Below are positions 31,555 to 46,723 of a stretch of 64,000 bases of DNA, one piece after another. Each line of letters opens with the position of its first letter. Within the stretch, counting starts at the first letter, position 1. This DNA comes from Kordiimonas laminariae (lineage in GTDB: Bacteria; Pseudomonadota; Alphaproteobacteria; Sphingomonadales; Kordiimonadaceae), in NCBI RefSeq assembly GCF_023008165.1, contig NZ_JAKQZA010000004.1, forward strand, positions 1 through 64,000. Direction: 5' to 3'. A program made the position numbers and the translations under genes. The notes beneath the pieces are model-generated. The model did no database searches, was not told where the DNA came from, and saw only the letters and a program-made list of their open reading frames with translations.

Positions 31555-31571
31555 ATAAAAAGGGGTAGGGC

Positions 31572-32033
31572 ATGAGCGAATATACGGATCTAATAAAACA
31601 AATACCGCTTGATCCTCGGCCTGATCTCCCAATTTTCTCTAATATACTTGAGTTATATTACTCAAAGCGCGGCTCTAAAACTCTCCCCGGTTGGTCTGAT
31701 TTCATCATTACAGATTTTATTGGTTGGCACGCAAATATGGCACTGTCTGAAAAAGAGGGAGGGGATTTCCGTTTTCGTATTTTTGGAACCGGATTTGCTG
31801 ATTTATTTGGATCAGACTTCACAGGAAAACGTCTTTGTGAATCAATGGCTGCGGGGCACACCGAAGCCTGTAAAGCGCACTTTGTTAATCTCGTACAGGA
31901 AAAGCATATTGGTTGGGTAAAGGGCAATTTACCGATCGAAGGGCGTGATTTTTTGCCCTTTGAAGTGATAGATTTACCCCTGCAAGATGATAATGGCGAA
32001 GTGACCAAGTTCTTGCATTTTATCGGTGTATGA
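31572..32033 (+). CDS. PAS_5-type sensory domain protein, second copy
   Basis: 153 residues, no signal peptide or output domain. The pattern is that of stand-alone PAS-like proteins of alphaproteobacteria: an N-terminal helix (LPIFSNILELYYSKRG), FRFRIFGTGFADLFGSDFTG as the PAS core start, a helix, and FEVIDLPLQDDNGEVTKFLH as the closing sheet. It is related in plan to the protein at 19141. GGGGTAGGGC precedes the ATG. It ends three bases before the convergent lipoprotein gene. Confidence 0.72.
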   Translation: MSEYTDLIKQIPLDPRPDLPIFSNILELYYSKRGSKTLPGWSDFIITDFIGWHANMALSEKEGGDFRFRIFGTGFADLFGSDFTGKRLCESMAAGHTEACKAHFVNLVQEKHIGWVKGNLPIEGRDFLPFEVIDLPLQDDNGEVTKFLHFIGV

Positions 32034-32036
32034 TTA

Positions 32037-32474
32037 CTAGGCACTATCGGCCTGATTGGCGTTAAAACCTTCTGAAGCTTGGAAGTTATAGCCTAGCAGT
32101 TTCAGTTTTCCTTCAACGCTTTTAAACGTAAATGTTTCATGGCCTAAGCCATTGATGAATTTAGTTTCGAACGTAACAACGACAATGGTACCTTCTCGTG
32201 CCATTGATTTCCAATTAAAGCCTGTGCGGTTTCCTGAAATTCTCTCACCGGTTAGGTTTCTTATGTCGCTAACATTTTTATTGAAGGTCTCGATACCTAT
32301 GTCGGCCTTGAGTTCAGGATGTACCATATCGTCATATATGGCAGAAAAAGAACGTGCGTTATAGAGAGCCTGAAAGTCTTCTATGAGGGGTTTAACTTCT
32401 TCTAGTCTTTCTGTTACACCGCAGCCAGTAATAACAAAAACAAATAAGAAAAGACTAGCTCTAAGAAAGTGCAT
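32037..32474 (-). CDS. Lipoprotein, small NTF2-like domain (DUF4019/DUF3887-like)
   Basis: The 145-residue product has a lipoprotein signal: MHFLRASLFLFVFVITGC with the lipobox ITGC, so it is probably anchored by lipid at the cysteine near residue 18. The rest resembles small NTF2-like domains (ALYNARSFSAIYDDMVHPEL, FETKFINGLGHETFTF). The ATG at 32474 is preferred over a TTG further upstream because GGGGGA lies eight bases before it. That ribosome binding site also forms the 3' arm of a terminator-like hairpin downstream of lipB. Function unknown. Confidence 0.72.
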   Translation of the reverse strand: MHFLRASLFLFVFVITGCGVTERLEEVKPLIEDFQALYNARSFSAIYDDMVHPELKADIGIETFNKNVSDIRNLTGERISGNRTGFNWKSMAREGTIVVVTFETKFINGLGHETFTFKSVEGKLKLLGYNFQASEGFNANQADSA

Positions 32475-32507
32475 AAAAAAAATCCCCCACAAAATATGCG
32501 AGGGATT
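32475..32507 (-). terminator. Terminator-like hairpin after lipB, overlapping the lipoprotein ribosome binding site
   Basis: On the minus strand AATCCC (32507-32502) can pair with GGGATT (32486-32481), followed by a run of T (32482-32475). The 3' arm contains the GGGGGA that should recruit ribosomes to the lipoprotein start at 32474. It can therefore end lipB transcripts or mask translation. Confidence 0.5.
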
Positions 32508-32535
32508 GTAGTCAGCTAAGTTTTAGAAAGCTATC

Positions 32536-33306
32536 TTAAACCTGAAAAACTGGGTGGCTTTTTGCTATATCTTCCGCTTCAGGTTGTGGTGCATCAGTTG
32601 GCATAGCCTCATAAGGTAGCGAATTACCTTTTGGACGTTCTTCAACCGTCTCCATTTTCATAGGTTGGGTCTCGAGCCCAAAGATTTCATCAAAGATTTC
32701 TTTAATCACAACATCGAAATCATCCATGGTGATAGGCAGGCCTAAATCAGCCATGCTGGTAACGCCGTGTTCTGAAATGCCACACGGAACAATACCTTGG
32801 AAATGGCTGAGGTCGGGCTCGATGTTTACAGCAATGCCGTGATATGTCACCCAGCGCTTAACTCGCACGCCGATAGCGCCGATCTTATCTTCTTTACCAG
32901 CGCCGCGTTCTACCCAAACGCCAACGCGGCCATCACGGCGTTCGGCTGTTACGCCGAATTTTGCGAGGGACTGGATCATCACTTCTTCGAGACTGTAAAC
33001 AAATTTGCGAACGTCACGTCCACGTTTTGTAAGGTCTAGAAGGAAGTAAACGACACGCTGCCCAGGGCCGTGGTATGTATATTCGCCGCCTCTGCCGGCA
33101 TCATAAACAGGGAAGCGGTCAGGATCGATCAAATCAGAAGGATCAGCGCTGGTGCCCGCTGTGTAAAGCGGTGGGTGCTCCAGAAGCCACACCATCTCTG
33201 GCGCTTCGCCCGCACGAATCGCTTTCACACGCTCTTCCATTTCTTCCAGAGCTTGCGGGTATTCAATTAGTTCGTCACTAATACGCCATTCAAGTGTGTG
33301 CGGCAT
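32536..33306 (-). CDS. lipB: Octanoyl-[acyl carrier protein] protein N-octanoyltransferase
   Basis: LipB moves octanoate from acyl carrier protein to lipoyl domains, the first step of lipoate assembly. The 256 residues contain [20 protein letters not shown], Lys141 in [12 protein letters not shown] and the catalytic Cys175 in [15 protein letters not shown]. The C-terminus has an extra polar tail of about 40 residues after the usual end. The gene lies between the lipoprotein (same strand) and the divergent FliN-like gene. Confidence 0.96.
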
Positions 33307-33462
33307 GTTCTATACTCCTGTAACCAGCAAGCGCTTAATACTGCTTTTGTAATATAAAGCCAAGATATAAGCGCATGTGGAAGATTCTTGAAGTGAAGCA
33401 AGCTTTTAGTTAATTGTTTAATAACGGCTCCTGTGCAACATTGCAGGAGAAAAGAGGTATTT

Positions 33463-33705
33463 ATGAATCATCATGCTGCAAATCGAGTCTCGGTAGATAT
33501 CACGGTGGTGCTTGGGCGCACCCACATGCCTATTCGTCAACTCCTTAAAATGGGCCGTGGCGCAGTGATTGATCTAGACGCAAAGCATGAAGATGAGTGT
33601 TGGATTTATGCGAATGGTGAACTTATCGCACGTGGTGAGATTATCATTGTTGGTGAACGCATTGGGGTGACCGTTACCCGTATGATGAGCGAATTGCAGA
33701 TTTAA
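33463..33705 (+). CDS. Orphan FliN-like (SpoA/C-ring) protein
   Basis: 80 residues that resemble the C-terminal SpoA domain of the flagellar switch protein FliN: VSVDITVVLGRTHMPIRQLL, KMGRGAVIDLDAKHEDECWI, YANGELIARGEIIIVGERIG. This is the whole protein, which matches the minimal C-ring domain. The ATG at 33463 is favoured by GAGG five bases before. No other flagellar gene is in the window, so either it serves a flagellum encoded elsewhere or it has another role. A palindrome lies just after its stop. Confidence 0.82.
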   Translation: MNHHAANRVSVDITVVLGRTHMPIRQLLKMGRGAVIDLDAKHEDECWIYANGELIARGEIIIVGERIGVTVTRMMSELQI

Positions 33706-33726
33706 GCTTCCTATTTCCAGTTGTTT

Positions 33727-33745
33727 GAAAAATGTAACATTTTTC
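33727..33745. promoter_or_regulatory. AT-rich 19-bp palindrome upstream of the tRNA promoter
   Basis: GAAAAATGT and ACATTTTTC form a perfect inverted repeat around one central A. It ends two bases before the -35 box of the tRNA-Leu promoter, so it could be an UP-like element, an operator, or a weak terminator of the FliN-like gene. Confidence 0.4.
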
Positions 33746-33747
33746 TC

Positions 33748-33776
33748 TTGCCAGTTTCGATCTCACTTGTTAGATA
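33748..33776 (+). promoter_or_regulatory. Promoter of tRNA-Leu
   Basis: TTGCCA (33748-33753) and TAGATA (33771-33776) are 17 bases apart. The expected start near 33783 would give a 5' leader of about seven bases before the mature tRNA, as usual for tRNA genes. Confidence 0.65.
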
Positions 33777-33789
33777 AGCGCCGCGTTCC

Positions 33790-33878
33790 GCGGCCGTGGC
33801 GGAATTGGTAGACGCGCAGCGTTGAGGTCGCTGTGGGATTAAGTTCCCGTGGAAGTTCGAGTCTTCTCGGCCGCACCA
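33790..33878 (+). tRNA. tRNA-Leu (anticodon GAG), CCA encoded
   Basis: The acceptor arm GCGGCCG (33790-33796) pairs fully with CGGCCGC (33868-33874), then A and the encoded CCA (33876-33878). The anticodon stem CAGCG/CGCTG (33817-33821, 33829-33833) presents TTGAGGT with the anticodon GAG at 33824-33826, which reads CUC and CUU. A long variable arm (TGGGA/TTCCC) and the TTCGAGT T-loop confirm a class II leucine tRNA. Confidence 0.97.
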
Positions 33879-33900
33879 TTTATCTCTCGAGATAAATTGA

Positions 33901-33940
33901 AAAAAGAGCAATCACTTCATGTGGTTGCTCTTTTTTGTTT
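33901..33940 (+). terminator. Bidirectional terminator between tRNA-Leu and the outer-membrane protein gene
   Basis: GAGCAATCAC (33906-33915) pairs with GTGGTTGCTC (33921-33930, one G-U pair) around TTCAT; six T follow on the plus strand, and the A-run before the stem gives a T-run on the minus strand. It can serve both the tRNA and the convergent gene ending at 33956. Confidence 0.88.
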
Positions 33941-33955
33941 GGTTATTGCTACAGC

Positions 33956-34699
33956 CTAAAAAGATTTTGCGATGAACAGCCGGAAGTCGACATCGGATGT
34001 CGCATCGGTTAATCCGAATAAGGTACTTGCCTCCATTGACCAGCCATCACCTAGCTTTGCCGAAACCGCAGGCCCAACCGAATGGTTTTGATTTCTGAAG
34101 TCAGGGAAGTCCGCTGTTGAACCGTAGGTGTTAAAGGATTGAACCTGTAGGTTATAAATGGAGTTTACCTGATACCGAAGGCTAGAGCGTGTTTGAAGGA
34201 AAATGCCGTTGTTACGGTTGTCCCCAAATTGTAGTTGAGCCAAAACCAGAGCTCGCGCTGTCCATTTCTCGGAAAGAGGAATATCGCTTGTCCAGTTGAA
34301 ACTCACTAGATTCGGACGGTCATCACCTAATAGTAAATCCACACGAAAAGCGGAATCGAAACCGTTGTCTTCACGGTTTAGAAATTGGTACTGGGCTTCA
34401 AACTGAACAAGGTCGAAATCGAAGTCACTGTTAAGAGTATCAGCGCCTTGGATAACTGCTCTAAGCCTCAAATTATCTGTAACAGTTTGCTGATAGTGAA
34501 AACGGCTTACTACACGTGATGGCCTGCCATCTGATTCCGGGGCAACTGCAACACGAAGCTCAGCGGCTTTACTGTCAGGTGTTACTTTGGGCCCGAATAC
34601 ACCGCCAACATTCTGAGCGGAAACTGGATCAGACATAGTCAAGAGGGCTAAGCTGATGAGTAATGTCGTGGTTATACGGAAGGAATGGAAAGCTAACAT
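33956..34699 (-). CDS. Probable outer-membrane beta-barrel protein
   Basis: 247 residues with a signal peptide (MLAFHSFRITTTLLISLALL, cleavage probably after VSA near residue 28). The mature part alternates aromatic/hydrophobic with polar residues (SRFHYQQTVTDNLRLRAVIQ, TARALVLAQLQFGDN, SLRYQVNSIYNLQVQSFNTY) and ends in phenylalanine (IAKSF), the signal for BAM-dependent insertion. Eight to ten strands are likely. The family is not recognised. A hairpin in its leader lies just before the ribosome binding site AGCAGGA. Confidence 0.75.
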   Translation of the reverse strand: MLAFHSFRITTTLLISLALLTMSDPVSAQNVGGVFGPKVTPDSKAAELRVAVAPESDGRPSRVVSRFHYQQTVTDNLRLRAVIQGADTLNSDFDFDLVQFEAQYQFLNREDNGFDSAFRVDLLLGDDRPNLVSFNWTSDIPLSEKWTARALVLAQLQFGDNRNNGIFLQTRSSLRYQVNSIYNLQVQSFNTYGSTADFPDFRNQNHSVGPAVSAKLGDGWSMEASTLFGLTDATSDVDFRLFIAKSF

Positions 34700-35053
34700 A
34701 AAATCCTGCTGCTCAGCTAACCGGAAAGGTTAAGCTGCTTTCTTATCTTTTACGGCTTAATGCCGCTGTTGAGTACGATTGTAGGTAAGCTACTTAATAG
34801 GAATTTCGATAGAAACACATAAACTTCCCTAATGCGTTTACAGCCTATTGAAACAGCGTTGCTGCCGTTGCCATAGCATCGTTTTTTCAGTTATGGAACA
34901 GGTATCAGGATAATTTGATTAGATTGGTTGGAAGGCCTCAAGAGGGCGGTCAGTTTGCTTGCCAGGTATTGGTTCTTCGCATGATTTAGTTGCCGCTAGA
35001 ACAGGCACGGAAAAGAGCAACCCTCTCATGTAGCTGCTCTTCTTTTATTGATT
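34700..35053. other. 354-base intergenic region
   Basis: Between two minus-strand genes. It contains the leader of the outer-membrane protein gene, with an inverted repeat CAGCT-AACC / GGTT-A-AGCTG at 34714-34737, and near its right end a degenerate copy of the terminator hairpin at 33901 (35012-35045, arms AGAGCA/TGCTCT only). I see no open frame or RNA gene that I can support in the rest. Confidence 0.5.
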
Positions 35054-35647
35054 TTAATTTGTTTCTGTAGCTGTTCTGGTTTGCGATACCTTGTATGCAA
35101 ACACGAGTGGCCAGAGATAGTTGATAGAACCAAAGATGCGCTGTGTAAGACCTTGATATCCCTCAGGGTCAAACCCGTTCAGCGCCAACCAGAGATAAAG
35201 CATGGCTGACAAGCTAACAAAAACTGTAATACCGTGCAGTTTGTTTCTTATCTCACTATCTTGAATATCGAGTAAGCATAGAGCTGGGGCAAGAATACTG
35301 AAAATACCAATGATATAAAGCCCATGCATGGGCCCCCCCATTGGCCAAATGCCATTTGCGATCATGGAAATACCAAATATGATCCAACACAGACTACCAG
35401 CGGAAAAAGCGCGCTGAGAAAATTTCCAAACACCTATACCAAACAAAATAAGAGCTGCGCCTGATGATAACGCTGCAATATTGGCAATAAAATGCGCTGT
35501 ATTATCCTGCAGTGTCATTACACTTACATGCGAGGAAATGGGGTTATAATCCACAGCAAAAAAGCCTGCGATGGTAGACAAGATAAGCCAAGCGGGCAGT
35601 GGAATGTATCCTGCCTTGACCAGCTGGTTTGTTGTCGAAGTGTTCAT
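35054..35647 (-). CDS. DUF998-type integral membrane protein
   Basis: 197 residues with six or seven predicted membrane helices, starting with YIPLPAWLILSTIAGFFAVD. The motif NPISSHVSVM early, then ANGIWPMGGPMHGLYIIGIF, fits the DUF998 family, whose function is unknown. No catalytic or ligand motif stands out. It is on the same strand as the thiolase gene upstream (35756) but 108 bases away, with a small palindrome TAGATGTGATCTA (35712-35724) between. Confidence 0.72.
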   Translation of the reverse strand: MNTSTTNQLVKAGYIPLPAWLILSTIAGFFAVDYNPISSHVSVMTLQDNTAHFIANIAALSSGAALILFGIGVWKFSQRAFSAGSLCWIIFGISMIANGIWPMGGPMHGLYIIGIFSILAPALCLLDIQDSEIRNKLHGITVFVSLSAMLYLWLALNGFDPEGYQGLTQRIFGSINYLWPLVFAYKVSQTRTATETN

Positions 35648-35755
35648 ATAGCCTCCCCATTCAGCCTGTTATAGCTGCAGGCTGTTTCCCTTAATAAACT
35701 AAAGATGAGACTAGATGTGATCTAATGGTTTGTGAAGCACTCTTTTAGCGTGTGA

Positions 35756-36988
35756 TCATATACCAACGACAAAAGAAACATTAGTGGTGCCAGAACCGCC
35801 AACATTATAAGTGGCAAATGTGGTGGCACCGCCAATTTGCATATCACCAGCTTGGCCACTTGTTTGCTTGTAGGCATCAAGCAACATGCGAACGCCCGTT
35901 GCACCTACTGGATGGCCAAGGCCAATAAGGCCGCCAGATGGATTCATAGGAAGCGTTCCTGCACGCTCTAATTTGCCTTCTTCAATAGCTTTCCAAGCCT
36001 CACCGGGGGCTGTAATACCAAAATGCTCAATCGCCATATATTCGGTAATGGTAAAACAGTCGTGGGTTTCAATGCCGTCTAGCGCGTCATGACCTGAAAT
36101 GCCAGCTCGCTTGTATGCGTCCGTAATGGCTTTTCTAGTCCATGGTAGAATGTGCCCATCTGATCCCTTGGAAGCAGCAAATTTTGTCGCAAGCTCCATT
36201 GGTGCGGTGGTGTGGCCCCAGCCTTTTAGGCGAGGTATGGCTTCTAACGGAATGCCTCGTTTATTCGCATAGTCTTGTGCTTTGTTTTCTGTCGCTAAAA
36301 ATACAACAGCAGCACCGTCTGTCACTTGTCCGCAGTCATGGCGTCTCATCCATCCTTCCACCACTGGGTTGGCATTGTCATCGGTTAAGAAACTCTCTTC
36401 TGTGAAGCTCCAGTTACGACTTTGGGCATTGGGGTTTTGTTTCCCATTATCGAAATTCTTTTTTGCAATGGCGGCTAAGTGTTCGCGTTTCAGGCCATAT
36501 CTTTCTTCATATGTTTCTGCGAGGTCGGAGAACAGGGATGGCCACACATAGGTACGTCCGTCAGTTTCCTTGCCGGCCCACGCGGCAGTGCCCAAGTGAT
36601 TTGCAGCAATATTGCCGGGTACATTTCGCATAAGTTCCACACCAAGCACGCAGGCAAGATCATATCGGCCTGCCTCCAGATCAGCCATAGCGGCCAATGT
36701 GGCCAGTGAGCCTGAGGCACAAGCTCCTTCATGTCGAGATGTTGGAAGGCCTGCAAAGTCAGCATGAATATGGCCCATAAAGCCGCCGAGCAGGCCTTGG
36801 CTGGCGAACAATTCACCAACAAAGTTACCAACATGAATGACTTCTACATCTTTTGCATCCAAGGCTGTTTTCTCAAGCCCAGTGAGAACACAGTTTTGCA
36901 TTAATTCAAAAATACCGAAGCCCTCGCGCGCCCAATTTCTTGAAAAATCAGTCATTTCCCCGCCGAGGATAAAGATGTCTTTAGCCAT
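35756..36988 (-). CDS. SCP-x-type thiolase (acetyl-CoA acetyltransferase family)
   Basis: The 410-residue protein belongs to the sterol-carrier-protein-x branch of thiolases, which cleave 3-oxoacyl-CoA, often with branched or sterol-derived chains. Visible are the nucleophile in RHEGACASGS (Cys90), the SCP-x hallmark HDCFTITEY and the histidine motif GLIGLGHPVGATGVR. It is transcribed divergently from the carotenoid-oxygenase-like gene. Its promoter (TTGACA, 18 bases, TATTGT) overlaps a 26-bp element shared with the second thiolase promoter. Confidence 0.9.
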   Translation of the reverse strand: MAKDIFILGGEMTDFSRNWAREGFGIFELMQNCVLTGLEKTALDAKDVEVIHVGNFVGELFASQGLLGGFMGHIHADFAGLPTSRHEGACASGSLATLAAMADLEAGRYDLACVLGVELMRNVPGNIAANHLGTAAWAGKETDGRTYVWPSLFSDLAETYEERYGLKREHLAAIAKKNFDNGKQNPNAQSRNWSFTEESFLTDDNANPVVEGWMRRHDCGQVTDGAAVVFLATENKAQDYANKRGIPLEAIPRLKGWGHTTAPMELATKFAASKGSDGHILPWTRKAITDAYKRAGISGHDALDGIETHDCFTITEYMAIEHFGITAPGEAWKAIEEGKLERAGTLPMNPSGGLIGLGHPVGATGVRMLLDAYKQTSGQAGDMQIGGATTFATYNVGGSGTTNVSFVVGI

Positions 36989-37007
36989 AATTCATGCTTT
37001 CTGTTGA

Positions 37008-37033
37008 AAGTTACTTGCATAACAATACTTACT
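37008..37033. promoter_or_regulatory. Shared 26-bp operator-like element, copy 1
   Basis: The element contains the 16-base core CATAACAATACTTACT at its right side and an AAGT-T-ACTT inverted repeat at its left. It differs at only 2 of 26 positions from the element at 40637-40662. It lies in the gap between the divergent thiolase and carotenoid-oxygenase-like genes, 20 bases before the thiolase start. Likely a binding site for the HxlR-type regulator at 40764. Confidence 0.72.
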
Positions 37034-37051
37034 GGTTCATACATTTGTCAA
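37022..37051 (-). promoter_or_regulatory. Promoter of the SCP-x-type thiolase gene
   Basis: On the minus strand a perfect TTGACA (37051-37046) is followed after 18 bases by TATTGT (37027-37022). The -10 lies inside the shared 26-bp element, so a bound repressor would block it. Exactly the same arrangement is seen at 40651-40680. Confidence 0.7.
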
Positions 37052-37081
37052 TTATCCTTTAATGATGAGGGGAGGAAACAC

Positions 37082-38548
37082 ATGGCAGTGGAACTTGTTA
37101 AAGAGTATGAAAGCTCGATCAAAGAGAATGATCACCCATATATGAATGGGCCATGGGCGCCTGTGCATAAGGAATATAACATCACCGATATGGAAGTGAT
37201 TGGGGAAATTCCGGCAGATATTGATGGTGTTTATCTTCGTAATTCTGAAAACCCTGTGCATCAGCCACTAGGTCGTTATCATCCATTTGATGCCGACGGC
37301 ATGCTCCATATGATGAGCTTTAAAGATGGCAAAGCAGAATACCGTAACCGCTTCATCCAAACCCGTGGTTTTAGGGCCGAACAGGAAGCTGGTGAAAGTC
37401 TTTGGGCTGGATGGACAGCATATCCGGTGAAATCCAAACGTATTGGTGAATGCGCGCAAGACGGGCTAAAAGATGCATCCTCAACTGATGTGGTGGTACA
37501 TGCGGGCAAGGTGATGACAACTCATTTTCAGTGTGGTGAAGGTTACAGGCTTGATCCATACACGCTTGATCAGCTTGGTATTGAAAGCTGGACACCGATT
37601 GAAGGAATTTCAGCGCACACTAAGGTGGATGAAAACACTGGCGAGATGATGTTCTTCAACTATGGAAAATATCCGCCATATCTGCACTATGGTGTTGTGG
37701 GCGCTGATAATAAGCTGAAGCATTATATCCCTGTGGAAATTAATCGCCCAAGCTTGCCGCATGATATGGCCTTCTCCGAAAATTATTCGATCCTCAATGA
37801 TTTCCCGATGGCCTGGATACCTGAAATGATTGAACAGGATATTTTCATGCCGCGCTATGAGGCGGATAAGCCTTCTCGTTTTGGTATTCTGCCACGTTAC
37901 GGTAATCCAGAAGACGTTAAGTGGTTTGAGGCAAAGCCAACATATGTTCTTCACTGGCTTAATGCATACGAGGAAGGTGATGAGATCATCCTCGATGGCT
38001 ATTTCCAGGGCAACCCAATGCCTGAACCACTGAAGGACCAACCAAAGCGCTATGCAATGATGATGGCACTTGTTGATCTTAATTCCTTGCAGGCGCGCCT
38101 TCACCGTTGGCGCTTTAACCTGAAAACAGGTGAGACAATCGAAGAAGATCTCGATGATGAAGTCCTTGAATTCGGTATGTTCAACCAGAAATATGCCGGT
38201 AAGAAGTATCGCTATGCATATAGCGCCAAACCAAAGAAGGGGATGTTCCTCTTTGAAGGGCTTGTAAAGCATGATCTTGAAACGGGCGAGAAGCAAACCT
38301 GCATGTTTGGTGAAGAACGCTATGGCAGTGAAGCACCATTTGTGCCGCGCATTGGTTCCAAATCAGAAGATGATGGCTATCTGGTTTCTTTCATCACAGA
38401 TATGAAAGAGAACCGCTCTGAATGCGTGCTAATTGATGCGCAGAATATTGAAGCAGGGCCTGTATGCCGGATTATTCTTCCGCACCATATTTCAAGTGGT
38501 ACACATGCTACATGGGCGAACGGGGAAGATATCCGCGCAGCGGAGTAA
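37082..38548 (+). CDS. Carotenoid-cleavage-oxygenase family protein
   Basis: The 488-residue product belongs to the RPE65/carotenoid oxygenase/lignostilbene dioxygenase family of iron(II) beta-propellers. Matching blocks are GVYLRNSENPVHQPLGRYHP, FDADGMLHMMSF, ISAHTKVDENTGEMMFFNYG, LPHDMAFSENYSILNDFPM, LHWLNAYEEGDEIILDGYFQ and the end SSGTHATW; each holds one of the expected iron-binding histidines. The upstream in-frame extension to 37004 lacks similarity, and GAGGGGAGG stands eight bases before the ATG at 37082. No signal peptide, so cytosolic. Substrate unknown: apocarotenoid or stilbene-like compounds. Confidence 0.9.
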   Translation: MAVELVKEYESSIKENDHPYMNGPWAPVHKEYNITDMEVIGEIPADIDGVYLRNSENPVHQPLGRYHPFDADGMLHMMSFKDGKAEYRNRFIQTRGFRAEQEAGESLWAGWTAYPVKSKRIGECAQDGLKDASSTDVVVHAGKVMTTHFQCGEGYRLDPYTLDQLGIESWTPIEGISAHTKVDENTGEMMFFNYGKYPPYLHYGVVGADNKLKHYIPVEINRPSLPHDMAFSENYSILNDFPMAWIPEMIEQDIFMPRYEADKPSRFGILPRYGNPEDVKWFEAKPTYVLHWLNAYEEGDEIILDGYFQGNPMPEPLKDQPKRYAMMMALVDLNSLQARLHRWRFNLKTGETIEEDLDDEVLEFGMFNQKYAGKKYRYAYSAKPKKGMFLFEGLVKHDLETGEKQTCMFGEERYGSEAPFVPRIGSKSEDDGYLVSFITDMKENRSECVLIDAQNIEAGPVCRIILPHHISSGTHATWANGEDIRAAE

Positions 38549-38564
38549 TTTTCTCTGAGCTAAT

Positions 38565-38602
38565 AAAAAAGGCTGGGGCAGTTTCCTGCTCCAGCCTTTT
38601 TT
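38565..38602 (+). terminator. Bidirectional terminator between convergent genes
   Basis: GGCTGGGGCA (38571-38580) pairs with TGCTCCAGCC (38587-38596, one G-U pair), flanked by six A on the left and six T on the right. It can end both the carotenoid-oxygenase-like gene and the convergent DUF1295 gene. Confidence 0.92.
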
Positions 38603-38618
38603 GTATCTGTAATATCCG

Positions 38619-39419
38619 TTAAGCGCTCTTACGCGGTGGCATTGGAATGAAGCCACTTGTTGAAGCTTTGTAGGCTTCATACTCGGGATATTTCTTCGAC
38701 ATATGGCGCTCAGTTAAGGCTTTGCCGCTTACTTTCACAAGGAAGAAGGTCATCACCAGCGGGCTGAATACGGTGTAGATGCCGTACGGAGAAGAGAGCG
38801 CGATGATGGTCAGGCCAATCCATACCATTGCGTCGCCGAAATAGTTTGGATGACGTGTCCATGACCACAAGCCTTGTGTCATTAGTTTGCCTTGGTTTTC
38901 AGGGTCTTTTTTGAAAGTTGTAAGCTGGTGGTCTCCAACTGCTTCGAAGAAAATGCCGATAAACCAAATTGTAGTGCCGATATAACCGAACATTGTAATT
39001 TCATTGCCTTCAAGGCCAAGCATGCCGAATTGAGCAGGGAAGGAAATCAGCCACGACAGAACACACTGCATGCCGAAAACAAACCAGAGGCTTTTAATAA
39101 TGAATGGCCCGTCGCCACCGGCTTGCTGGCGCATTCTCACATAGCGGTAATCTTCACCGTGAGGCAGGTTTCGTTTACCAAGATACAGGCCCAATCTTAA
39201 AGCCCAAATGCTCACCAGCGTTACCAACAGTAGCTGCATGGGATGACCATTTGAATGGTTTACGTAAGTAACAACACCGGGTAGTGCACAGGCTGGGCCC
39301 CAAAGAATATCTACGATGCTGGCATCTTTTTTAAAAATACTGATGACCCAGAATGCCAGAAAAACTAGGGCTGAAATGCCGAGGCTTTCAAGCGCGATTG
39401 ATGTAAGCTGATCTGACAT
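38619..39419 (-). CDS. DUF1295 family membrane protein (steroid 5-alpha-reductase-like)
   Basis: 266 residues with about seven membrane helices. The C-terminal part has the family core: GLWSWTRHPNYFGDAMVWIG, with the NADPH/substrate-binding RHPNYFG, and GKALTERHMSKKYPEYEAYK. Such proteins resemble steroid 5-alpha-reductases and isoprenylcysteine methyltransferases and probably reduce or methylate lipid substrates. The ATG at 39419 lies one base after the thiolase stop (39421) with AAAGGA inside the end of that gene, so both form one operon. Confidence 0.85.
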   Translation of the reverse strand: MSDQLTSIALESLGISALVFLAFWVISIFKKDASIVDILWGPACALPGVVTYVNHSNGHPMQLLLVTLVSIWALRLGLYLGKRNLPHGEDYRYVRMRQQAGGDGPFIIKSLWFVFGMQCVLSWLISFPAQFGMLGLEGNEITMFGYIGTTIWFIGIFFEAVGDHQLTTFKKDPENQGKLMTQGLWSWTRHPNYFGDAMVWIGLTIIALSSPYGIYTVFSPLVMTFFLVKVSGKALTERHMSKKYPEYEAYKASTSGFIPMPPRKSA

Positions 39420-39420
39420 T

Positions 39421-40611
39421 TTAAATCCTTTCAATAATCATGGCCGAGCCTAAGCCAGCTGCGCCCGAAATAGCAACCATGCCCATAGTTTTGTCTTGGC
39501 GTTCGAGCTCATCGAGTAGTGTACAGAGGAGGATGCCTCCTGTTGCCCCCATAGGATGCCCCAGAGCAATAGCGCCGCCATTTACGTTTAATTTATCTCT
39601 GCTAATCCCAAGTTCCTGCATAAAGAGAAGGCATACCGCTGCATACGCTTCATTAAACTCAAACAGATCAATATCGTTGGCTGACATGTCAGCTTTTTTC
39701 AGGCAATCCTTTGCAGCTTCAATGCCACCGGTGAGAGAAAGAAGAGGATCGCCGCTTAGGTTGGAAACTGCTTTAATCTGGGCGCGAGGTTTAAGTCCGG
39801 CAGCTTCTCCCGCATCAGCAGAACCAAGCAGGATTAAGGAAGCAGCATCAGCGAGAGCAGGCGCTGACCCTACATGATGAATGTGGTTTACTTCATCATA
39901 TTCCGGGTATGTATGCAGGAATGTTTTATCTGCGGTTGATGAGTTCATGATATCTACGAGGCTATCAAAGCTCGCCAGTTTTTCAGTGGTGGTGTTGGGC
40001 CTTGCCGTTTCATCACGAGCAAAATGACCATCATCAGTGCTTATAGATATGATTGAACGCTCAAAACGGTTTTCCGTTTCAGCGATGCCTGCGCGTTTTT
40101 GAGATTCCTCGGCGTAGGTATCGGCTTCATCGCGTGTAATACCTGTTTTTGTTGCTACAAAATCAGCCGCTGACCAGAGCGGAGAAAAGGAGCAGGCTTG
40201 CATAGTTGCTGGATCACTGTAGTAGGGCCCCGCGTCGGAAAAAGGCGCAACCCGGGACATGCTTTCAACACCACCTGCAAGCAATAACTTATCTAAAGTT
40301 GGCGCTTTGAGAGCTGCTATCTGGCACGCATCAAGGCCGGAACAGCAAAAATTATTTACTGTCAGCGCAGCGACGTCAGACGGGAGATTTGAGGAAAGAG
40401 CTAAGGCTCGGGCAATATTCCCGCCTTGTTCGCCAGTTTGCGTGACACAGCCCAGGATAAGGTCTGATATCTGTAGTTTATCTGTATGTCTCGTTTTGAG
40501 TGCATCAAGTAAAGTTTGCCCTAATTCTATGGGCTTGGTTTTTGTCAGGGCGCCACCGGGTTTTACAGCACCGCGCCCAGTTCGGACACCATCATAAATA
40601 TACGCATTCAC
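39421..40611 (-). CDS. Thiolase-family acyltransferase with an altered C-terminal active-site cysteine
   Basis: The 396-residue protein has the FadA/PhaA layout: nucleophile Cys89 in [31 protein letters not shown] with the conserved Asn, and [15 protein letters not shown] with the His. The final CxG motif, which supplies the second catalytic cysteine in ordinary thiolases, reads AISGAAGLG, without cysteine. The fold is intact, so the change may alter the reaction (for example acyl transfer or condensation rather than cleavage) or reflect a subgroup I do not know. It heads the operon with the DUF1295 gene. Confidence 0.86.
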
Positions 40612-40636
40612 TTAAATCTGCTCCCCTCAGTATTTT

Positions 40637-40662
40637 AAGTAACTTTCATAACAATACTTACT
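40637..40662. promoter_or_regulatory. Shared 26-bp operator-like element, copy 2
   Basis: Second copy of the element at 37008-37033, with the same 16-base core CATAACAATACTTACT and an AAGT-A-ACTT inverted repeat, 24 of 26 bases identical and in the same orientation. It lies between the second thiolase (26 bases before its start) and the regulator gene (101 bases before its start). Confidence 0.72.
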
Positions 40663-40680
40663 ATTCTCGTTAGAAGTCAA
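40651..40680 (-). promoter_or_regulatory. Promoter of the second thiolase operon
   Basis: TTGACT (40680-40675 on the minus strand), an 18-base spacer and TATTGT (40656-40651). The -10 lies within the shared element, in the same arrangement as at 37022-37051, including the six spacer bases next to the -10. Confidence 0.7.
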
Positions 40681-40763
40681 ATAGAACTGTGCCCGACGTG
40701 GACAAGGGCCCTTTTATCCATTAACAGATAAGGGAGAAGATGACTCTATGAGCCAGATATTTA

Positions 40764-41696
40764 ATGAGCAAAACCAAGCAAGAAACCACTGGTGCTATTG
40801 AACGTGCGATTGATGCTCTATGCGATACGCCCACCTTACTTTTGCTCGAAGGAGCTTGGCTTGGTGTAAAACGGTTCGATGAATTTCAGCAAAAAACTGG
40901 CCTTATGAAAGCCATGGTCAGCAGCCGCCTTAAAAAGATGGTTGAGATTGGTGTGCTTTATAAATCAGCCTACTGTGAAAAGCCGCCAAGATATGAGTAT
41001 TTATTCACTGAGATGGGGCTTGATCTATTTCCTGTCGCAATGATGATGTTGGACTGGGAACAGACATGGTCTGATCAAGAAGGGCGCATTCAAGTATCCC
41101 TTTCCCATAGCACTTGCGAGGCAGGAAATGTAAAGCCCGTTTGTAGCTGTGCCGAATGTAATACTGAGGTTCGTATTCAGGATGTGGAGCATATCATTCA
41201 TGCAGAAAGTGGTGCAGCTATCGGCGGTTACAGTAAACGGCGCAGGCAGGCGGGACTGGATAGAAAATCTACCGTTCTTTTTGATGAAATATCAGAAATA
41301 TTTGGAGATCGTTGGCTCAGTCTCTTGATCCGTGCGGCATTCTTAGGAAGTAAACGATATGATACCTTCCTTGAAATGACGGGTATTTCTTCGAACATAT
41401 TGGTGAGCCGGCTTAACCTTGGTATTGAAAAAGGTTTGTTTGTAAAACGGGCATACCAGAGCAATCCAAAGCGTTTTGAATATCTGTTGACTGAGAAAAC
41501 ATATGCTCTCTACCCTATATTGCTTTTTCTTGTGAAATGGGGGGATCGCTGGTTTGGGGAAAGTGCTAAAAATTCTGTGGAACTTGTTCACAAAACATGT
41601 TCAGAAAAGCTAGCGCCCCAAATTTCCTGTAGCCATTGCGGTAAAGAGATGACAGTTTTTAATACCAGTTTTAAAGTGGCGGAACCCGAGAGTTAA
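40764..41696 (+). CDS. Tandem HxlR-type transcriptional regulator
   Basis: The 310-residue protein consists of two similar HxlR winged-helix halves. Half one (about 8-145) has LLLEGAWLGVKRFDEFQQKT and MVSSRLKKMVEIGVLYKS; half two (about 168-305) has GDRWLSLLIRAAFLGSKRYD and SNILVSRLNLGIEKGLFVKR. Each ends with a cysteine cluster after H-x-TC (CSCAEC; CSHCG), which could bind a metal or react with an electrophile. Ordinary HxlR proteins are single-domain dimers of 100-130 residues, so this is a built-in pseudo-dimer. It is divergent from the thiolase operon and probably controls it. Confidence 0.88.
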   Translation: MSKTKQETTGAIERAIDALCDTPTLLLLEGAWLGVKRFDEFQQKTGLMKAMVSSRLKKMVEIGVLYKSAYCEKPPRYEYLFTEMGLDLFPVAMMMLDWEQTWSDQEGRIQVSLSHSTCEAGNVKPVCSCAECNTEVRIQDVEHIIHAESGAAIGGYSKRRRQAGLDRKSTVLFDEISEIFGDRWLSLLIRAAFLGSKRYDTFLEMTGISSNILVSRLNLGIEKGLFVKRAYQSNPKRFEYLLTEKTYALYPILLFLVKWGDRWFGESAKNSVELVHKTCSEKLAPQISCSHCGKEMTVFNTSFKVAEPES

Positions 41697-41881
41697 TCAT
41701 GTATTATTGTTTCTGTTCTAAGTTTTAGAAGGAACAAGAAATTAGTTTATTTGATGTAAAAGTTTACAGTTGCAAACGTTGGGGCGACCCAATAAGAGAT
41801 TTGCAATACACGGCGGTTTATCTTTTCCGCGCATGCAGAGCTTTATAATTTAGATTTAGTATCTTTTGAGGGAGGGCAGAC

Positions 41882-43309
41882 ATGGTTCTTGAAGAACAGA
41901 CACCAGAAATTAAAGACCCTCAAAATAATGATGCCGAAGCCCAGCACCATGAAGTGCAAACTGATGTGCATATGGATAGGGATTTTGTTCAAACCCTTCA
42001 ATATGCTCTCAGAAAAGATGATGAAACCAAGATTCTGGAGCTTTTAGAAGAAGTTCATGCAGCTGATGTAGCTGATATTCTGGAGGTTTTATCGTCTGGT
42101 CAGCGTACAAAGCTTATTGCCCTTATCGGTGCTAATTTCCCTGCTGAGGTACTTTCAGAGATTGAAGGTGAAGCACAGGATGATCTCTACGAGCAGCTCC
42201 CCAATGAACAAATTGCGGAAGCGGTTACCGAGATGGAAACCGATGATGCGGTTTACGTTCTCGAAGAGCTGGATGAAGAAGACCGTGCTGAAGTTCTTGA
42301 GCAGCTTCCCACTGATGACCGGGTCGCGATTGAAGAAAGCCTAAGCTACCCCGAGGATTCTGCTGGTCGTCTGATGCAGCGAGACCTGTTCGCGATCCCT
42401 GAGTTTTGGACAGTTGGGCAAACCATTGATTACCTGCGCTCCGATAGCGAAGATATCCCTGATGATTTCTATGATGTTTTCATTGTTGATCCAATGCATA
42501 AGCCGATTGGTTCACTGCCGCTTTCTCGTATATTGCGTACAGCACGTGAAACAGCAATCGCGGATATCATGCGCCGGGACATCTTTAAGATTGATGCGGT
42601 AGCCGATCAGGAAGAAGTAGCATATCAGTTCAGTAAATATCATCTTATCTCTGCAAGCGTTGTGGATGATGCCGGGCGGCTTGTTGGTGTGATCACTGTG
42701 GATGATGTTGTTGACGTAATTGGTGAAGAAGCTGAGGAAGATATTCTTGCTCTCGGTGGTGTAAGAGACGAATCTGGCCTTAATGAAAGCTTTATAGAGA
42801 TCACTCGTGGTCGATTTACCTGGCTGTTTGTAAATTTGCTGACCGCAATCCTTGCTTCTGCTGTGATCGGTATGTTTGAAGCTACGATTGAACAGATGGT
42901 GGCACTGGCAGTGCTCATGCCAATAGTAGCATCTATGGGCGGTAATGCAGGCACACAGACTATGACTGTATCCGTGCGCGCGATTGCCACCAAGGAACTT
43001 TCCTCATCAAATGCACTGCGGGTGCTGGTTCGGGAGTTTACAGCTGCAGGTGTGAACGGAACAGTGCTTGCCATAGTTTCTGGTTTGGTAGCGTGGTTTT
43101 GGTTTGATAGCTTGATGCTTGGCGGTGTATTTGCTGCAGCTATGATTTTCAATATGGTGGTTGCAGGGCTTTGCGGGCTTTTAATCCCGATGGGGCTCTA
43201 TAAAATGGAGATTGATCCAGCAATTTCATCAAGCGTTTTTGTAACGACAATTACGGATGTTGTTGGTTTCTTTGCATTTTTGGGAATGGCAGCTCTCTTC
43301 CTGCTGTAG
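41882..43309 (+). CDS. mgtE: Magnesium transporter MgtE
   Basis: MgtE is a Mg2+-gated channel of the inner membrane. The 475-residue protein has an acidic N-domain (QYALRKDDETKILELLEEVH), the superhelical part with ETDDAVYVLEELDEEDRAEV, two CBS domains (the second starting near DIFKIDAVADQEEVAYQF) and five C-terminal membrane helices with MPIVASMGGNAGTQTMTVSV, the ion-path motif. GAGGGAGGGCAG precedes the ATG. The following response regulator begins 21 bases after its stop. No Mg2+ riboswitch was recognised upstream. Confidence 0.96.
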   Translation: MVLEEQTPEIKDPQNNDAEAQHHEVQTDVHMDRDFVQTLQYALRKDDETKILELLEEVHAADVADILEVLSSGQRTKLIALIGANFPAEVLSEIEGEAQDDLYEQLPNEQIAEAVTEMETDDAVYVLEELDEEDRAEVLEQLPTDDRVAIEESLSYPEDSAGRLMQRDLFAIPEFWTVGQTIDYLRSDSEDIPDDFYDVFIVDPMHKPIGSLPLSRILRTARETAIADIMRRDIFKIDAVADQEEVAYQFSKYHLISASVVDDAGRLVGVITVDDVVDVIGEEAEEDILALGGVRDESGLNESFIEITRGRFTWLFVNLLTAILASAVIGMFEATIEQMVALAVLMPIVASMGGNAGTQTMTVSVRAIATKELSSSNALRVLVREFTAAGVNGTVLAIVSGLVAWFWFDSLMLGGVFAAAMIFNMVVAGLCGLLIPMGLYKMEIDPAISSSVFVTTITDVVGFFAFLGMAALFLL

Positions 43310-43330
43310 AGCGCTGGTTAGGACACATAC

Positions 43331-44125
43331 GTGAACAAGGGCACCGTTTTACTGGTTGATGATGAACTGATTGTTTTGCAGTTGCAGGCAGCAGCTGTGC
43401 GCCATTTTGGTTTTGAAGCCATTATGGCAGATACAGCAGAAGAAGGACTGCATCTGGCTGGGAAACACAACCCATCTTTGATTATCAGTGATGTCCAAAT
43501 GCCCGGTGAGGGTGGTTTTGATTTCGTAAATGGCCTAAGGCGGCGCGGCATTAAAACCATGCCTGTTATGTATCTTACTGGCTACGATGACATTATTACT
43601 GTGCGTGATGGGCTGAAAGCCGGCGGGGATGATTTTATTATCAAAGGCGGCCCTGTTGAAAACCTCCGCAAGCGCATTGCCTTCTGGATGACAAGTGGGT
43701 TTGTTGGCTTGCCAGATGAACTAAGAAGGCGTGCAATTGACGCTGTGTCTCTAGATAACTGTGAGGGATTTTCCGGTATAGAGAACTATTTTGCCGGTGA
43801 TGATTTCCTTGTAGAACGGGCTACATCTCAAATGAGAGAAGAGGTGAGTTCACTGCCTGAAAATTATGGTTTCCGGATGATCGAACGTGTGTTTTTCATG
43901 GCGCGTCTTTCTCACATTGTTATCACCCAGTGTAGCGGATTTGGGGACCTTGTTCGTTTCCCTGAAGCGCTGGACCGTATTACAAGAATGCTTGATATGC
44001 CTTGGTCTAAGGATATGTCAGCCCTGTATAGTGAGTATGAATACTGGACGCAGGATATTCGGTTTGTAAAAGCTGGCGCTGAACCGCTTAAACCGTTTCA
44101 GGATTATCAGTGGCCTAATATCTGA
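43331..44125 (+). CDS. Response regulator with an unrecognised C-terminal domain
   Basis: Residues 1-125 form a CheY-like receiver: VLLVDDE with the acidic pair, phosphoacceptor Asp54 in LIISDVQMPG, Thr83 and Lys105. The remaining about 140 residues (starting GLPDELRRRAIDAVSLDNCE, with MIERVFFMARLSHIVITQCS) are helical and match no output domain that I know; there is no helix-turn-helix, GGDEF, HD or kinase motif. The start is GTG at 43331. It follows mgtE closely and may be co-transcribed. No histidine kinase is adjacent. Confidence 0.82.
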   Translation: MNKGTVLLVDDELIVLQLQAAAVRHFGFEAIMADTAEEGLHLAGKHNPSLIISDVQMPGEGGFDFVNGLRRRGIKTMPVMYLTGYDDIITVRDGLKAGGDDFIIKGGPVENLRKRIAFWMTSGFVGLPDELRRRAIDAVSLDNCEGFSGIENYFAGDDFLVERATSQMREEVSSLPENYGFRMIERVFFMARLSHIVITQCSGFGDLVRFPEALDRITRMLDMPWSKDMSALYSEYEYWTQDIRFVKAGAEPLKPFQDYQWPNI

Positions 44126-44251
44126 ATTCTGTTCGCCGAACTGCTATACCATCTCAGCTCAAAAATATTCCCTTTTGAAATCAAATCTTTAAAGCATATG
44201 TTGTGGCAATATATGCATAAGATCAGGTTAGCTATATTTCAGGGGGATATT

Positions 44252-45832
44252 TTGAATAATTTAATGAAGACAGTAGCCATAGGGGCTGTGATGGCTTTTT
44301 CTTTCGCTGTAGAGGCAGAAGAAAAAGTGGATTTGGATATTGTTTCTAAAATCCGGACAGAAGGCTTCGCAAATTCACAAGTTGAGAGCATCCTTCAACA
44401 TTTGACCGATGATATTGGGCCGCGCCTTACTGGCACGCCAGCAATGTTGGAGGCTAACAATTGGACCAAAGAAAAGCTGGAGGAATGGGGTTTAAAGAAC
44501 GCTAAGCTCGAAGGGTTTGAATTTGGTCCAGGCTGGACAATGGAAGGCGTTCAGGTGTTTATGACTGAGCCGCGTAAAACTCAGCTTTATGCCATGCCTA
44601 TCAGCTGGCATCCGGGTACAGAGGGTGTGCTGGAAGCCGATGTGATATATGCGCCTATCCGTTCCAAGAAGGATTTTGAAAAATATAAAGGCAAGCTTGA
44701 AGGCAAGCTGGTAATGGTGGACCGGGTTCGTGATCAACGTGAACCAACCAATAAAGTATTCCGGCGACATGATAAAAAAGGTCTTGCTAAAATACAGAAG
44801 TTTGACACTGACATTGGCGGTAATGAGATTGATGGCTGGGTAAGCTATAAAAGCTTTTTCTATGAATTAGGTATGTTCCTGGAAGCAGAAGGCGCTGCGG
44901 GAATTATTCGTCGTTCACCGCGCACAGGTATGCTTATTGAAGCATCTGGCTACCGTCACCTTGAAGGGTTAACGGCAAAAATCCCGGGCGTTCGTTTAGC
45001 TGCGGAACATTATGCCCGTGCCGTTCGTCTTCTGGGTGAAGGAGAAGAAGTGAAAATGAGCCTTGATGTGGATGCAACTTTTCACACAGGCGATATGAAT
45101 AGCTATTCCACTATTGCTGAAATCCCGGGGAAGGGTAGAAAGCCTGAGGTTGTTTTAGCTGGGGCACACCTTGATAGCTGGTTTGTCGGTGATGGTGCGG
45201 TGGATAACGGTGCAGGTGTTGCTGTTGTAATGGAAGCTGTTCGTATCCTGAAAGCTATTGGTGTTGAACCAAAACGCACTATCCGTGTAGGCCTTTGGGG
45301 CGGCGAAGAGCAGGGGTATTATGGTTCTCAGCAATATGTGATGGATCATTTGGCTTCACGCCCGGAAAATACGGCTGAGCGTCTGAAATATATGGCGCCA
45401 TATGAAAAACACTACCGCCAGTTCCCGATTAGCAAGAAGCCGGAGTTTGATAAATTTTCAGCTTATTTCAATCTGGATAATGGTTCGGGTAAAATACGTG
45501 GTGTGTATGCGGAAGGTAACTCAGCAGCGGCTTCCGTTTTCAAGAAATGGTTGAAACCATTCCATGATCTAGGTGCTAATACAGTAACGTTAAATTCAAC
45601 AGGCGGCACAGATCATGAAGTGTTTGATGATATTGGCTTGCCAGGCTTTCAGTTTATTCAGGATCCATTAGATTATGGCTCGAGGCTTCATCACAGCCAG
45701 CTTGATGTGTTTGACCACGCTTATATAGAAGATCTGAAGCAAGCATCAGTAATTATGGCGAGTTTTCTATACAACGCCGCTATGCGTGATGAAAAAATGC
45801 CGCGCAAGCCGATGCCGCACGCAGAGAAATAG
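44252..45832 (+). CDS. Secreted M28-family metallopeptidase
   Basis: The 526-residue protein has a signal peptide (MKTVAIGAVMAFSFAVEAEE), a PA-like inserted domain in the first half, and an M28 zinc aminopeptidase domain: LAGAHLDSWFVGDGAVDNGA (His and Asp ligands), LWGGEEQGYYGS (Glu-Glu) and LHHSQLDVFDH. It probably removes amino acids or dipeptides from peptides in the periplasm. The TTG at 44252 is chosen because AGGGGGAT lies five bases before; the ATG at 44264 is the alternative. Convergent with panC. Confidence 0.88.
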   Translation: MNNLMKTVAIGAVMAFSFAVEAEEKVDLDIVSKIRTEGFANSQVESILQHLTDDIGPRLTGTPAMLEANNWTKEKLEEWGLKNAKLEGFEFGPGWTMEGVQVFMTEPRKTQLYAMPISWHPGTEGVLEADVIYAPIRSKKDFEKYKGKLEGKLVMVDRVRDQREPTNKVFRRHDKKGLAKIQKFDTDIGGNEIDGWVSYKSFFYELGMFLEAEGAAGIIRRSPRTGMLIEASGYRHLEGLTAKIPGVRLAAEHYARAVRLLGEGEEVKMSLDVDATFHTGDMNSYSTIAEIPGKGRKPEVVLAGAHLDSWFVGDGAVDNGAGVAVVMEAVRILKAIGVEPKRTIRVGLWGGEEQGYYGSQQYVMDHLASRPENTAERLKYMAPYEKHYRQFPISKKPEFDKFSAYFNLDNGSGKIRGVYAEGNSAAASVFKKWLKPFHDLGANTVTLNSTGGTDHEVFDDIGLPGFQFIQDPLDYGSRLHHSQLDVFDHAYIEDLKQASVIMASFLYNAAMRDEKMPRKPMPHAEK

Positions 45833-45848
45833 AATTGTGGAAAGAGCT

Positions 45849-45870
45849 TTAAGGCGCTAAGGCGCCTTAA
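45849..45870. other. Palindrome at the end of panC
   Basis: TTAAGGCG (45849-45856) and CGCCTTAA (45863-45870) form a perfect 8-bp inverted repeat that spans the panC stop codon between two convergent genes. No T-run follows on either strand, so a terminator role is uncertain. Confidence 0.4.
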
Positions 45871-46714
45871 TCGCCATATTATCCAGAAGCCGGATGTCAC
45901 CCAGCCGCGCAACAGAAACCACTCTGGCTTCTTCGGTAATTTCATGAATTTCATGCAGTGTATCTTTGTGAACAATTGATACGTAATCTACAGCAGTGAA
46001 CCCGGCTTTAAGTAAGGCATCAGAAGCCTCACCTTCCAAGACTCGTAAATCCTCGCCAGCTTCTGCCTTAGAAACGAGTTCTTTCAGTATCACATTGAAA
46101 GTGCCAGCAATCCTGCGTTCTTTTTCGCTTAGGTAAGCGTTGCGGGATGAAGCCGCCAAACCATCACTTTCCCTAATAAGCTTGCCACCAAGAATTTGAA
46201 CAGGAATATCCAGATCACGTGTGAACTGCCGTATAACAGCCAACTGCTGATAATCTTTTTCCCCGAAGATTGCTACATCCGGTTGGCACTGCATAAAAAG
46301 TTTTGAAACGATTGTCGCAACACCATCAAAGTGACCAATTCGGTTGGCTCCCTCTAGGATCTCACTAAGACCATCAAGAGTAACGCGTGTTGTGTGCCCA
46401 TCTGGGTACATCTCTTCAACGGAAGGAGCGAACACAATGCTTGCCGGGGTGGCTGCTAATTTTTCGCGGTCAGCTGCTTCTTGTCTAGGGTATTGATCTA
46501 AATCTTCATGCGCGCCAAACTGAGTTGGGTTTACGAAGATGGAGACGACAATGCGGTCAGAATGTTCTGCAATAGCGTTTACCAATGAAAGGTGGCCATG
46601 ATGGAGGGCTCCCATAGTGGGAACAAGGCCTACGCGTAGGCCTTCTTTTTTCCATTCAGTAACCAAGCTGCGGATTTCACTAATGGTGCGCACAACAGGT
46701 GTCATTTTAGGCAT
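45857..46714 (-). CDS. panC: Pantothenate synthetase
   Basis: PanC joins pantoate and beta-alanine with ATP to make pantothenate. The 285-residue protein has the nucleotidyltransferase motif PTMGALHHGHLSLV with the HxGH pair, FVNPTQFGAHEDLDQYPRQE, GEKDYQQLAVIRQFTRDLDI and the KMSKS-like SSRNAYLSEKE. Length is standard. On the minus strand its start lies nine bases after the glucosaminidase-like gene. Confidence 0.97.
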   Translation of the reverse strand: MPKMTPVVRTISEIRSLVTEWKKEGLRVGLVPTMGALHHGHLSLVNAIAEHSDRIVVSIFVNPTQFGAHEDLDQYPRQEAADREKLAATPASIVFAPSVEEMYPDGHTTRVTLDGLSEILEGANRIGHFDGVATIVSKLFMQCQPDVAIFGEKDYQQLAVIRQFTRDLDIPVQILGGKLIRESDGLAASSRNAYLSEKERRIAGTFNVILKELVSKAEAGEDLRVLEGEASDALLKAGFTAVDYVSIVHKDTLHEIHEITEEARVVSVARLGDIRLLDNMAIKAP

Positions 46715-46723
46715 TTTAAGCTC

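Follow-up and report, generated by a model that had tools for sequence, protein, structure and literature searches.

A putative operator shared by two divergent intergenic regions beside a tandem HxlR regulator in Kordiimonas laminariae

Introduction

Proteins of the HxlR/DUF24 family bind DNA as winged-helix dimers (PMC7835342). In PMC11667970, Mce3R of Mycobacterium tuberculosis is presented as a double-TetR repressor that has two fused, nonidentical halves and a 25-bp nonpalindromic site and that controls lipid-metabolism genes as well as its own gene. Here, we examine a stretch of 64,000 nucleotides from Kordiimonas laminariae (contig NZ_JAKQZA010000004.1, positions 1 to 64,000), hereafter the window. 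In it, two copies of a 26-bp element occupy both divergent intergenic regions of a five-gene block, the sole regulator of which is a protein with two HxlR domains in one chain (the tandem HxlR protein). We consider it probable that the elements are operators of this adjacent protein, which would act as a covalent pseudo-dimer and repress the divergent units by covering the −10 or +1 region.

The likeness of this protein to the described HxlR/DUF24 regulators (Bacillus subtilis HxlR, YodB, and HypR; PA1607 and PA1374) is that both of its halves match PF01638. The difference is that two domains, one of an N type and one of a C type, are fused here, each with an HxxC...CxxC extension. By its domains the chain belongs to the family, and by their number it departs from the usual single-domain chain; we regard it as a variant architecture of HxlR/DUF24. 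Mce3R is the closest worked-out parallel and is alike in outline. The parallel is an analogy only: Mce3R has the TetR fold and belongs to an unrelated family, and its operator and structure have been shown experimentally. A literature search that left most subscription journals outside its reach found no report of a natural tandem or double HxlR protein or of an HxlR protein associated with a carotenoid oxygenase or lignostilbene. The literature on "two HxlR" includes an engineered formaldehyde sensor.

Occurrence and conservation of the element

Site 1 reads AAGTTACTTGCATAACAATACTTACT and site 2 reads AAGTAACTTTCATAACAATACTTACT (letters read directly; coordinates in Table 1). As an initial annotation of the window had proposed, the two 26-bp elements share a common orientation and are identical at 24 of 26 bases. 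When up to three mismatches were allowed, a search of the window returned exactly these two elements (none in dinucleotide shuffles), and a search of both strands of the whole genome (3,647,539 bases) again returned them alone, with no match for a reversed-pattern control. At the same threshold, a looser pattern gave 16 matches in the genome versus 44 for its reversed control. The two elements matched it without mismatches and nothing else matched with fewer than two, and this search gave no evidence of sites beyond the two elements. One two-mismatch match (C20) falls within an open frame of 660 amino acids that looks like a type II secretion secretin. The genome holds two convincing sites: we looked for copies at many unrelated loci, as would be expected of a motif not dedicated to these genes, and found no other convincing one.

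Outside the element, the two intergenic regions compared in register agree at 5 of 19 and 16 of 48 positions, which is near chance and bears out the earlier remark that the flanks do not match. A nearly full-length homologue of the tandem HxlR protein is present in 13 of 29 genomes of the family Kordiimonadaceae (that of K. laminariae included), at 14 loci in total, and the other 13 loci (L033 to L045) were compared with the window. L033 is ∼97% identical and adds little; the informative relatives are L034 (54%) and L035 (43%). Site 1 is identical to its counterparts in L033, L034, and L035 at 26/26, 25/26, and 21/26 positions, compared with 62/67, 26/67, and 29/67 in its surroundings. For site 2, the values are 26/26, 21/26, and 21/26 inside the element and 118/126, 38/126, and 61/126 around it. 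In the two informative relatives, the elements keep 21 to 25 of 26 bases while the flanks fall to 30 to 48% identity. A recent promoter duplication could have made the elements alike, but we rejected this explanation: L034 and L035 conserve each site separately amid diverging flanks, and site 1 and site 2 have unlike flanks.

Within the same 19 kb as the regulator, the 13 family loci encode a homologue of the RPE65-type oxygenase (12/13), thiolase A (11/13), the DUF1295 protein (9/13), and thiolase B (4/13). At the more distant loci, related elements precede RPE65 or other genes. Those of L040 to L042 were aligned by eye on the common AGTAACT, as a search allowing up to eight mismatches gave no match there save one distant eight-mismatch match in L041. 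Two overlapping copies of the element precede RPE65 in L035. Overlapping pairs with an offset of exactly 18 bases are seen in L035 (14031/14049), L091 (3421/3439), and L095 (7973/7991), and such pairs may represent two regulator molecules side by side.

Across the 29 family genomes, the pattern GTNACTTNCATAANNATACTNAC with at most two mismatches gave 14 matches in 7 genomes, versus 13 for the reversed control. Eleven of the 14 lie at tandem-HxlR loci, and one lies within a coding frame. Another, with one mismatch, precedes a DUF1295 gene in genome G001 (L062), ∼0.68 Mb from a cluster that itself lacks DUF1295. This distant DUF1295-like gene (L062/L157, 2.638 Mb) diverges from a gene resembling a haloalkane dehalogenase-type alpha/beta hydrolase. 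The last match (G003, L063 1501-1523, two mismatches) lies between the gene of a single-domain HxlR protein and an enoyl-CoA hydratase-like gene. The L063 protein groups with the C halves of the tandem proteins; it possibly reads a similar site.

In 396 genomes of the order, a strict pattern (at most one mismatch) had 10 matches, spread over 7 genomes, and its reversed control had no match. The tandem regulator was found at an E value of ≤1e-30 in 52 of the 396 genomes, including all 7 with a strict site; the remaining 45 are without one, and the strict pattern represents the near relatives of the window. The pattern had been defined with the help of five of the seven genomes. In the other two (G048 and G105, both outside the family), the strict site lies inside a tandem-HxlR/RPE65 cluster. 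Among the 53 regulator matches listed, 3 (L169 in G369, and those in G148 and G358) have one in-frame stop.

For a wider comparison, we took the best 80 named RPE65 loci by RPE65 alignment, from Alpha-, Beta-, and Gammaproteobacteria. A two-domain HxlR protein is encoded in the fetched flanks of 45 of them and a single-domain one in none. A matrix trained independently on 21 Kordiimonadaceae sites was tested on up to 200 bp upstream of RPE65 at 77 loci, i.e., the 80 minus the family loci L073, L074, and L090, which repeat L034, L036, and L041 (these three are likewise absent from the 161 refined-matrix sites and the same-strand TTGAC offsets below but remain in the 45 of 80 and in the 60-row comparisons of domain halves). 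At 12 bits or more, it matched 19 of the 77 loci, all outside the family (column-permuted mean, 0.14). These comprise 13 of the 42 loci with a nearby tandem regulator and 6 of the 35 without, for which 200 column-permuted matrices gave means of 0.075 and 0.065 and maxima of 2 and 1, respectively. The corresponding counts are 14 and 7 at ≥8 bits and 8 and 1 at ≥16 bits. The 19 loci are alpha- and gammaproteobacterial, with no betaproteobacterial locus among them. The element, whose loss beside the same genes in relatives we had looked for, is thus conserved at loci within and outside the family. Together with its rarity in the genome, this conservation and the matrix matches outside the family support the proposal of a dedicated regulon of divergent promoters.

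Because a refined matrix had these same loci as its training set, counts made with it are circular, and the Kordiimonadaceae matrix is the sole independent test. At ≥13 bits, the refined matrix finds a noncoding site in 34 of the 45 tandem loci and in 11 of the 35 loci without a nearby tandem regulator. At the latter, the regulator gene could be outside the fetched flank, or the site could serve a different protein. At ≥16 bits, the refined matrix gives 161 sites; 135 of them are located upstream of a match to one of 19 query proteins, at no more than 260 bp, and 2 fall within such a match.

Form of the site and of the regulator

Sixty-six nonredundant sites give nagTaACTTGCATAAnnAgACTnAct, with an asymmetric core of ∼21 bp, TnACTTGCATAAnnAnACTnA. 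The strongest part of the site is ACTTGCATAA plus a second ACT. The motif AAGT-N-ACTT, which the initial annotation had pointed out, is not supported as the key palindrome: it occurs in some sites only and is not the core, its first three bases carrying 0.1 to 0.4 bit. In a column permutation test of site symmetry, neither the best dyad (P = 0.07) nor a direct repeat (P = 0.25) was significant. An inverted-repeat reading, TAGTA...TACTA, was also considered and rejected: it fits some gammaproteobacterial sites and not the whole set.

The window regulator matches PF01638 in two stretches (104.9 bits; gathering score, 20.8). Two domains per chain are likewise present in 59 other rows of our alignment, the 60 rows representing 57 distinct genes, as three genes were entered twice. 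An HxxC...CxxC motif lies behind each domain (H115, C118, C129, and C132; H276, C279, C289, and C292) and is found in both halves in 97 to 100% of the rows; judging from this pattern, the Cys/His knuckles would bind zinc. The two domains differ at one position of the recognition helix: all 60 N domains have R or K there, whereas 59 of 60 C domains have P, T, or S, with an adjoining Asn in 49 of 60 C halves. A FastTree phylogeny separates the N from the C halves, with 57 of 60 on either side (support, 0.44 and 0.53).

An AlphaFold2 model (pLDDT, 89.9; pTM, 0.88), computed from 43 sequences (42 of the 46 tandem proteins encoded at the named loci, plus the window protein), has a winged-helix fold like that of the solved HxlR proteins, and the nearest solved folds in Foldseek are the single-domain HxlR proteins PA1607 and PA1374, followed by YodB and HypR. 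SarS-type proteins of Staphylococcus also carry two winged helices in one chain. Their representative (1p4x, Foldseek rank 40) superposes very poorly (TM score, 0.21 to 0.25; root mean square deviation, 16.5), and its domains are not HxlR domains. A sequence search found no solved tandem HxlR protein, the HxlR-type solved chains that it returned being no larger than one domain (107 to 168 amino acids). The regulator scores far below the NCBIfam cutoffs for the redox regulators RrpB (45.1 versus 175 bits) and RrpA (34.2 versus 185 bits), and no TetR domain was matched in it by Pfam at an E value of ≤0.001.

Tentatively, and at somewhat less than even odds in our judgment, the tandem protein may go back to a single old duplication that produced a one-chain HxlR pseudo-dimer. 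Its halves would then have specialized to different half-sites, escaping the palindrome constraint of homodimers, and the protein would since have remained with an uncharacterized degradation pathway of oxygenase and thiolases, as the repressor dedicated to it, across Alpha-, Gamma-, and some Betaproteobacteria.

Overlap with predicted promoters and proposed mode of action

The initial annotation had described identical promoter geometry at the two sites. The arrangement TTGAC(A/T)-18-TATTGT is indeed present on the minus strand at both window sites, but it is not conserved: the thiolase A promoter keeps TTGAC and a TATTGT inside the element in L034 and L035 with spacers of 17 and 16, and the thiolase B form is not kept, the best match in L034 using another −10 hexamer and that in L035 lying outside the element. 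In another group of loci, the predicted promoter shares the strand of the element and stops right in front of it; the best forward promoter ends one base short of the element in L041 to L043, L102, L104, and L113. On the element's strand, TTGAC starts at a distance of exactly 30 bases ahead of it at 10 of the 161 sites (mean per offset, 0.47), namely, at the family loci L040 to L044 and at L102, L104, L111, L113, and L151. With this spacing, the element would cover the transcription start. The 30-base TTGAC is part of the best-scoring forward promoter in six of nine of those loci examined. TTGAC at offsets −2 and −11 (six sites each) is formed from the element's own letters. On the opposite strand, 20 of 35 TTGAC motifs lie 16 to 22 bases before the element (near-duplicate loci included). 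The geometries differ, yet the element overlaps the predicted core promoter. Such overlaps, seen in several genomes, make it plausible that the regulator blocks the −10 region.

The adjacent tandem HxlR protein most likely reads the elements. From the computed element and its conservation, from its presence alongside the tandem regulator and over predicted promoters, and from the two domain types, we infer direct binding, repression rather than activation, an inducer, and a substrate, as follows. The protein would be a covalent pseudo-dimer of two diverged winged-helix domains, each with its own Cys/His knuckle, and its two unlike recognition helices would read the asymmetric site as a single unit. 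By covering the −10 hexamer or the transcription start, it would repress thiolase A and the RPE65-type oxygenase at one site and, likewise, the thiolase B-DUF1295 operon and its own gene at the other; a pathway substrate or product would then release it.

A second reading, in which the tandem HxlR protein does use the element as its operator but acts there as an activator, is unlikely. The solved entries of HxlR call it a transcriptional activator, and B. subtilis HxlR activates hxlAB. On the other hand, occlusion suits the locus better than upstream activation because the element overlaps the predicted −10 or start region, and the element stands in both orientations relative to RPE65 (38 toward and 20 away). 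We give still less credence to the idea that a transcription factor encoded elsewhere reads the element and that the tandem HxlR protein is a mere neighbor. The noncoding refined-matrix sites at 11 of the 35 RPE65 loci without a nearby tandem regulator would fit such a factor. Against it, the five-gene block encodes no other regulator, the 7 genomes (of 396) in which a strict site occurs all encode the tandem regulator (5 of them having helped define the pattern), and 24 of the 161 refined-matrix sites precede the tandem HxlR gene itself. That the element is a core promoter or an alternative-sigma motif rather than an operator is highly improbable: it does contain the −10-like hexamer TATTGT, but it stands in both orientations relative to the same gene, lies one base beyond the end of the best forward promoter in the six loci named above, and is confined to two places in the genome.

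Several observations weigh against repression by a tandem regulator at an asymmetric operator. In the family search, the matches (14) are about as many as those of the reversed control (13), and only location separates the real ones. Many of the RPE65 loci come from related genera and are not independent. Eleven of the 45 tandem loci have no noncoding refined-matrix site, and, as noted, 11 of the 35 loci without a nearby tandem regulator do have one. The element adjoins a single-domain HxlR gene in L063, and therefore the tandem form may not be needed. The split between N and C halves is weakly supported (0.44 and 0.53), and L045, L093, and L132 do not fit it; zinc binding is read from the HxxC/CxxC pattern only. 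The site is called asymmetric because no significant symmetry was detected in it (dyad, P = 0.07; direct repeat, P = 0.25), which is not proof. Finally, sigma-70-like matches over the 7-kb region are not above those in shuffles (13 matches; shuffle mean, 11.2; standard deviation, 3.4).

Gene block and proposed pathway

The gene neighbors are as first annotated: two thiolases, a protein of the RPE65/carotenoid-oxygenase family, and an HxlR-type regulator (Table 1). A DUF998 protein is encoded behind thiolase A on the same strand (window positions 35054-35647) and was matched only in L033 among the 13 family loci; it may be part of the thiolase A operon. An Rfam search of positions 30000-48000 for known RNA elements matched only a tRNA at 33790.

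Table 1. Features of the five-gene block and its intergenic regions (window coordinates)
Feature	Coordinates	Strand	Remarks
Operator 1 (putative)	37008..37033	+	Between thiolase A (leftward) and RPE65-type oxygenase (rightward)
Operator 2 (putative)	40637..40662	+	Between thiolase B-DUF1295 operon (leftward) and tandem HxlR gene (rightward)
Putative thiolase A promoter, TTGACA-18-TATTGT	37022..37051	-	Consensus 10/12; -10 inside operator 1
Putative thiolase B promoter, TTGACT-18-TATTGT	40651..40680	-	Consensus 9/12; -10 inside operator 2
Thiolase A (Thiolase_C_1; NF004936/PRK06289)	35756..36988	-	620.9 bits, cutoff 375
RPE65/carotenoid-cleavage-type oxygenase	37082..38548	+	PF03055, E 6e-123
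DUF1295 protein (steroid-reductase-like)	38619..39419	-	Second gene of thiolase B operon; PF06966, E 1e-73
Thiolase B (acetyl-CoA C-acyltransferase subfamily)	39421..40611	-	TIGR01930, 311.8 bits, cutoff 240.55
Tandem HxlR regulator	40764..41696	+	310 amino acids; two HxlR domains; PF01638, two stretches

The oxygenase belongs to the RPE65 family (PF03055; 411.7 bits versus a threshold of 27) and falls below three NCBIfam equivalog cutoffs: carotenoid cleaving (246 of 675 bits), lignostilbene (229 of 800 bits), and NOV2 (198 of 650 bits). It scores best against a carotenoid 9,10-dioxygenase (231 bits), with LsdA lower (172 bits). A phenolic (lignostilbene) substrate was considered and provisionally set aside, as the positions of the phenol-binding Tyr and Lys of LsdA are not kept in an alignment inspected by eye.

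At the 80 RPE65 loci, tblastn found thiolase A-like (47 loci), thiolase B-like (31), TonB receptor (27), AMP-ligase (20), and nitronate-monooxygenase-like (19) genes. The oxygenase and the thiolases and, elsewhere, the AMP-ligase, an aldehyde dehydrogenase, and the TonB receptor suggest that the cluster products take up an unsaturated hydrophobic compound, cleave it, and break it down by a CoA-dependent route. For a widespread type of regulator, the element offers an operator that can be tested together with a set of defined genes, and the cluster becomes a searchable regulon: carriage of the site marks a gene as a candidate member of the pathway, as with the DUF1295 gene far from the cluster in G001. 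If the two halves do read unlike half-sites, a fold other than that of the double-TetR protein Mce3R would also pair fused DNA-binding halves with a nonpalindromic operator.

Larger clusters, with a TonB receptor, a nitronate-monooxygenase-like gene, a DsbA-like protein, and at least four elements each, are found in L037 and L156.

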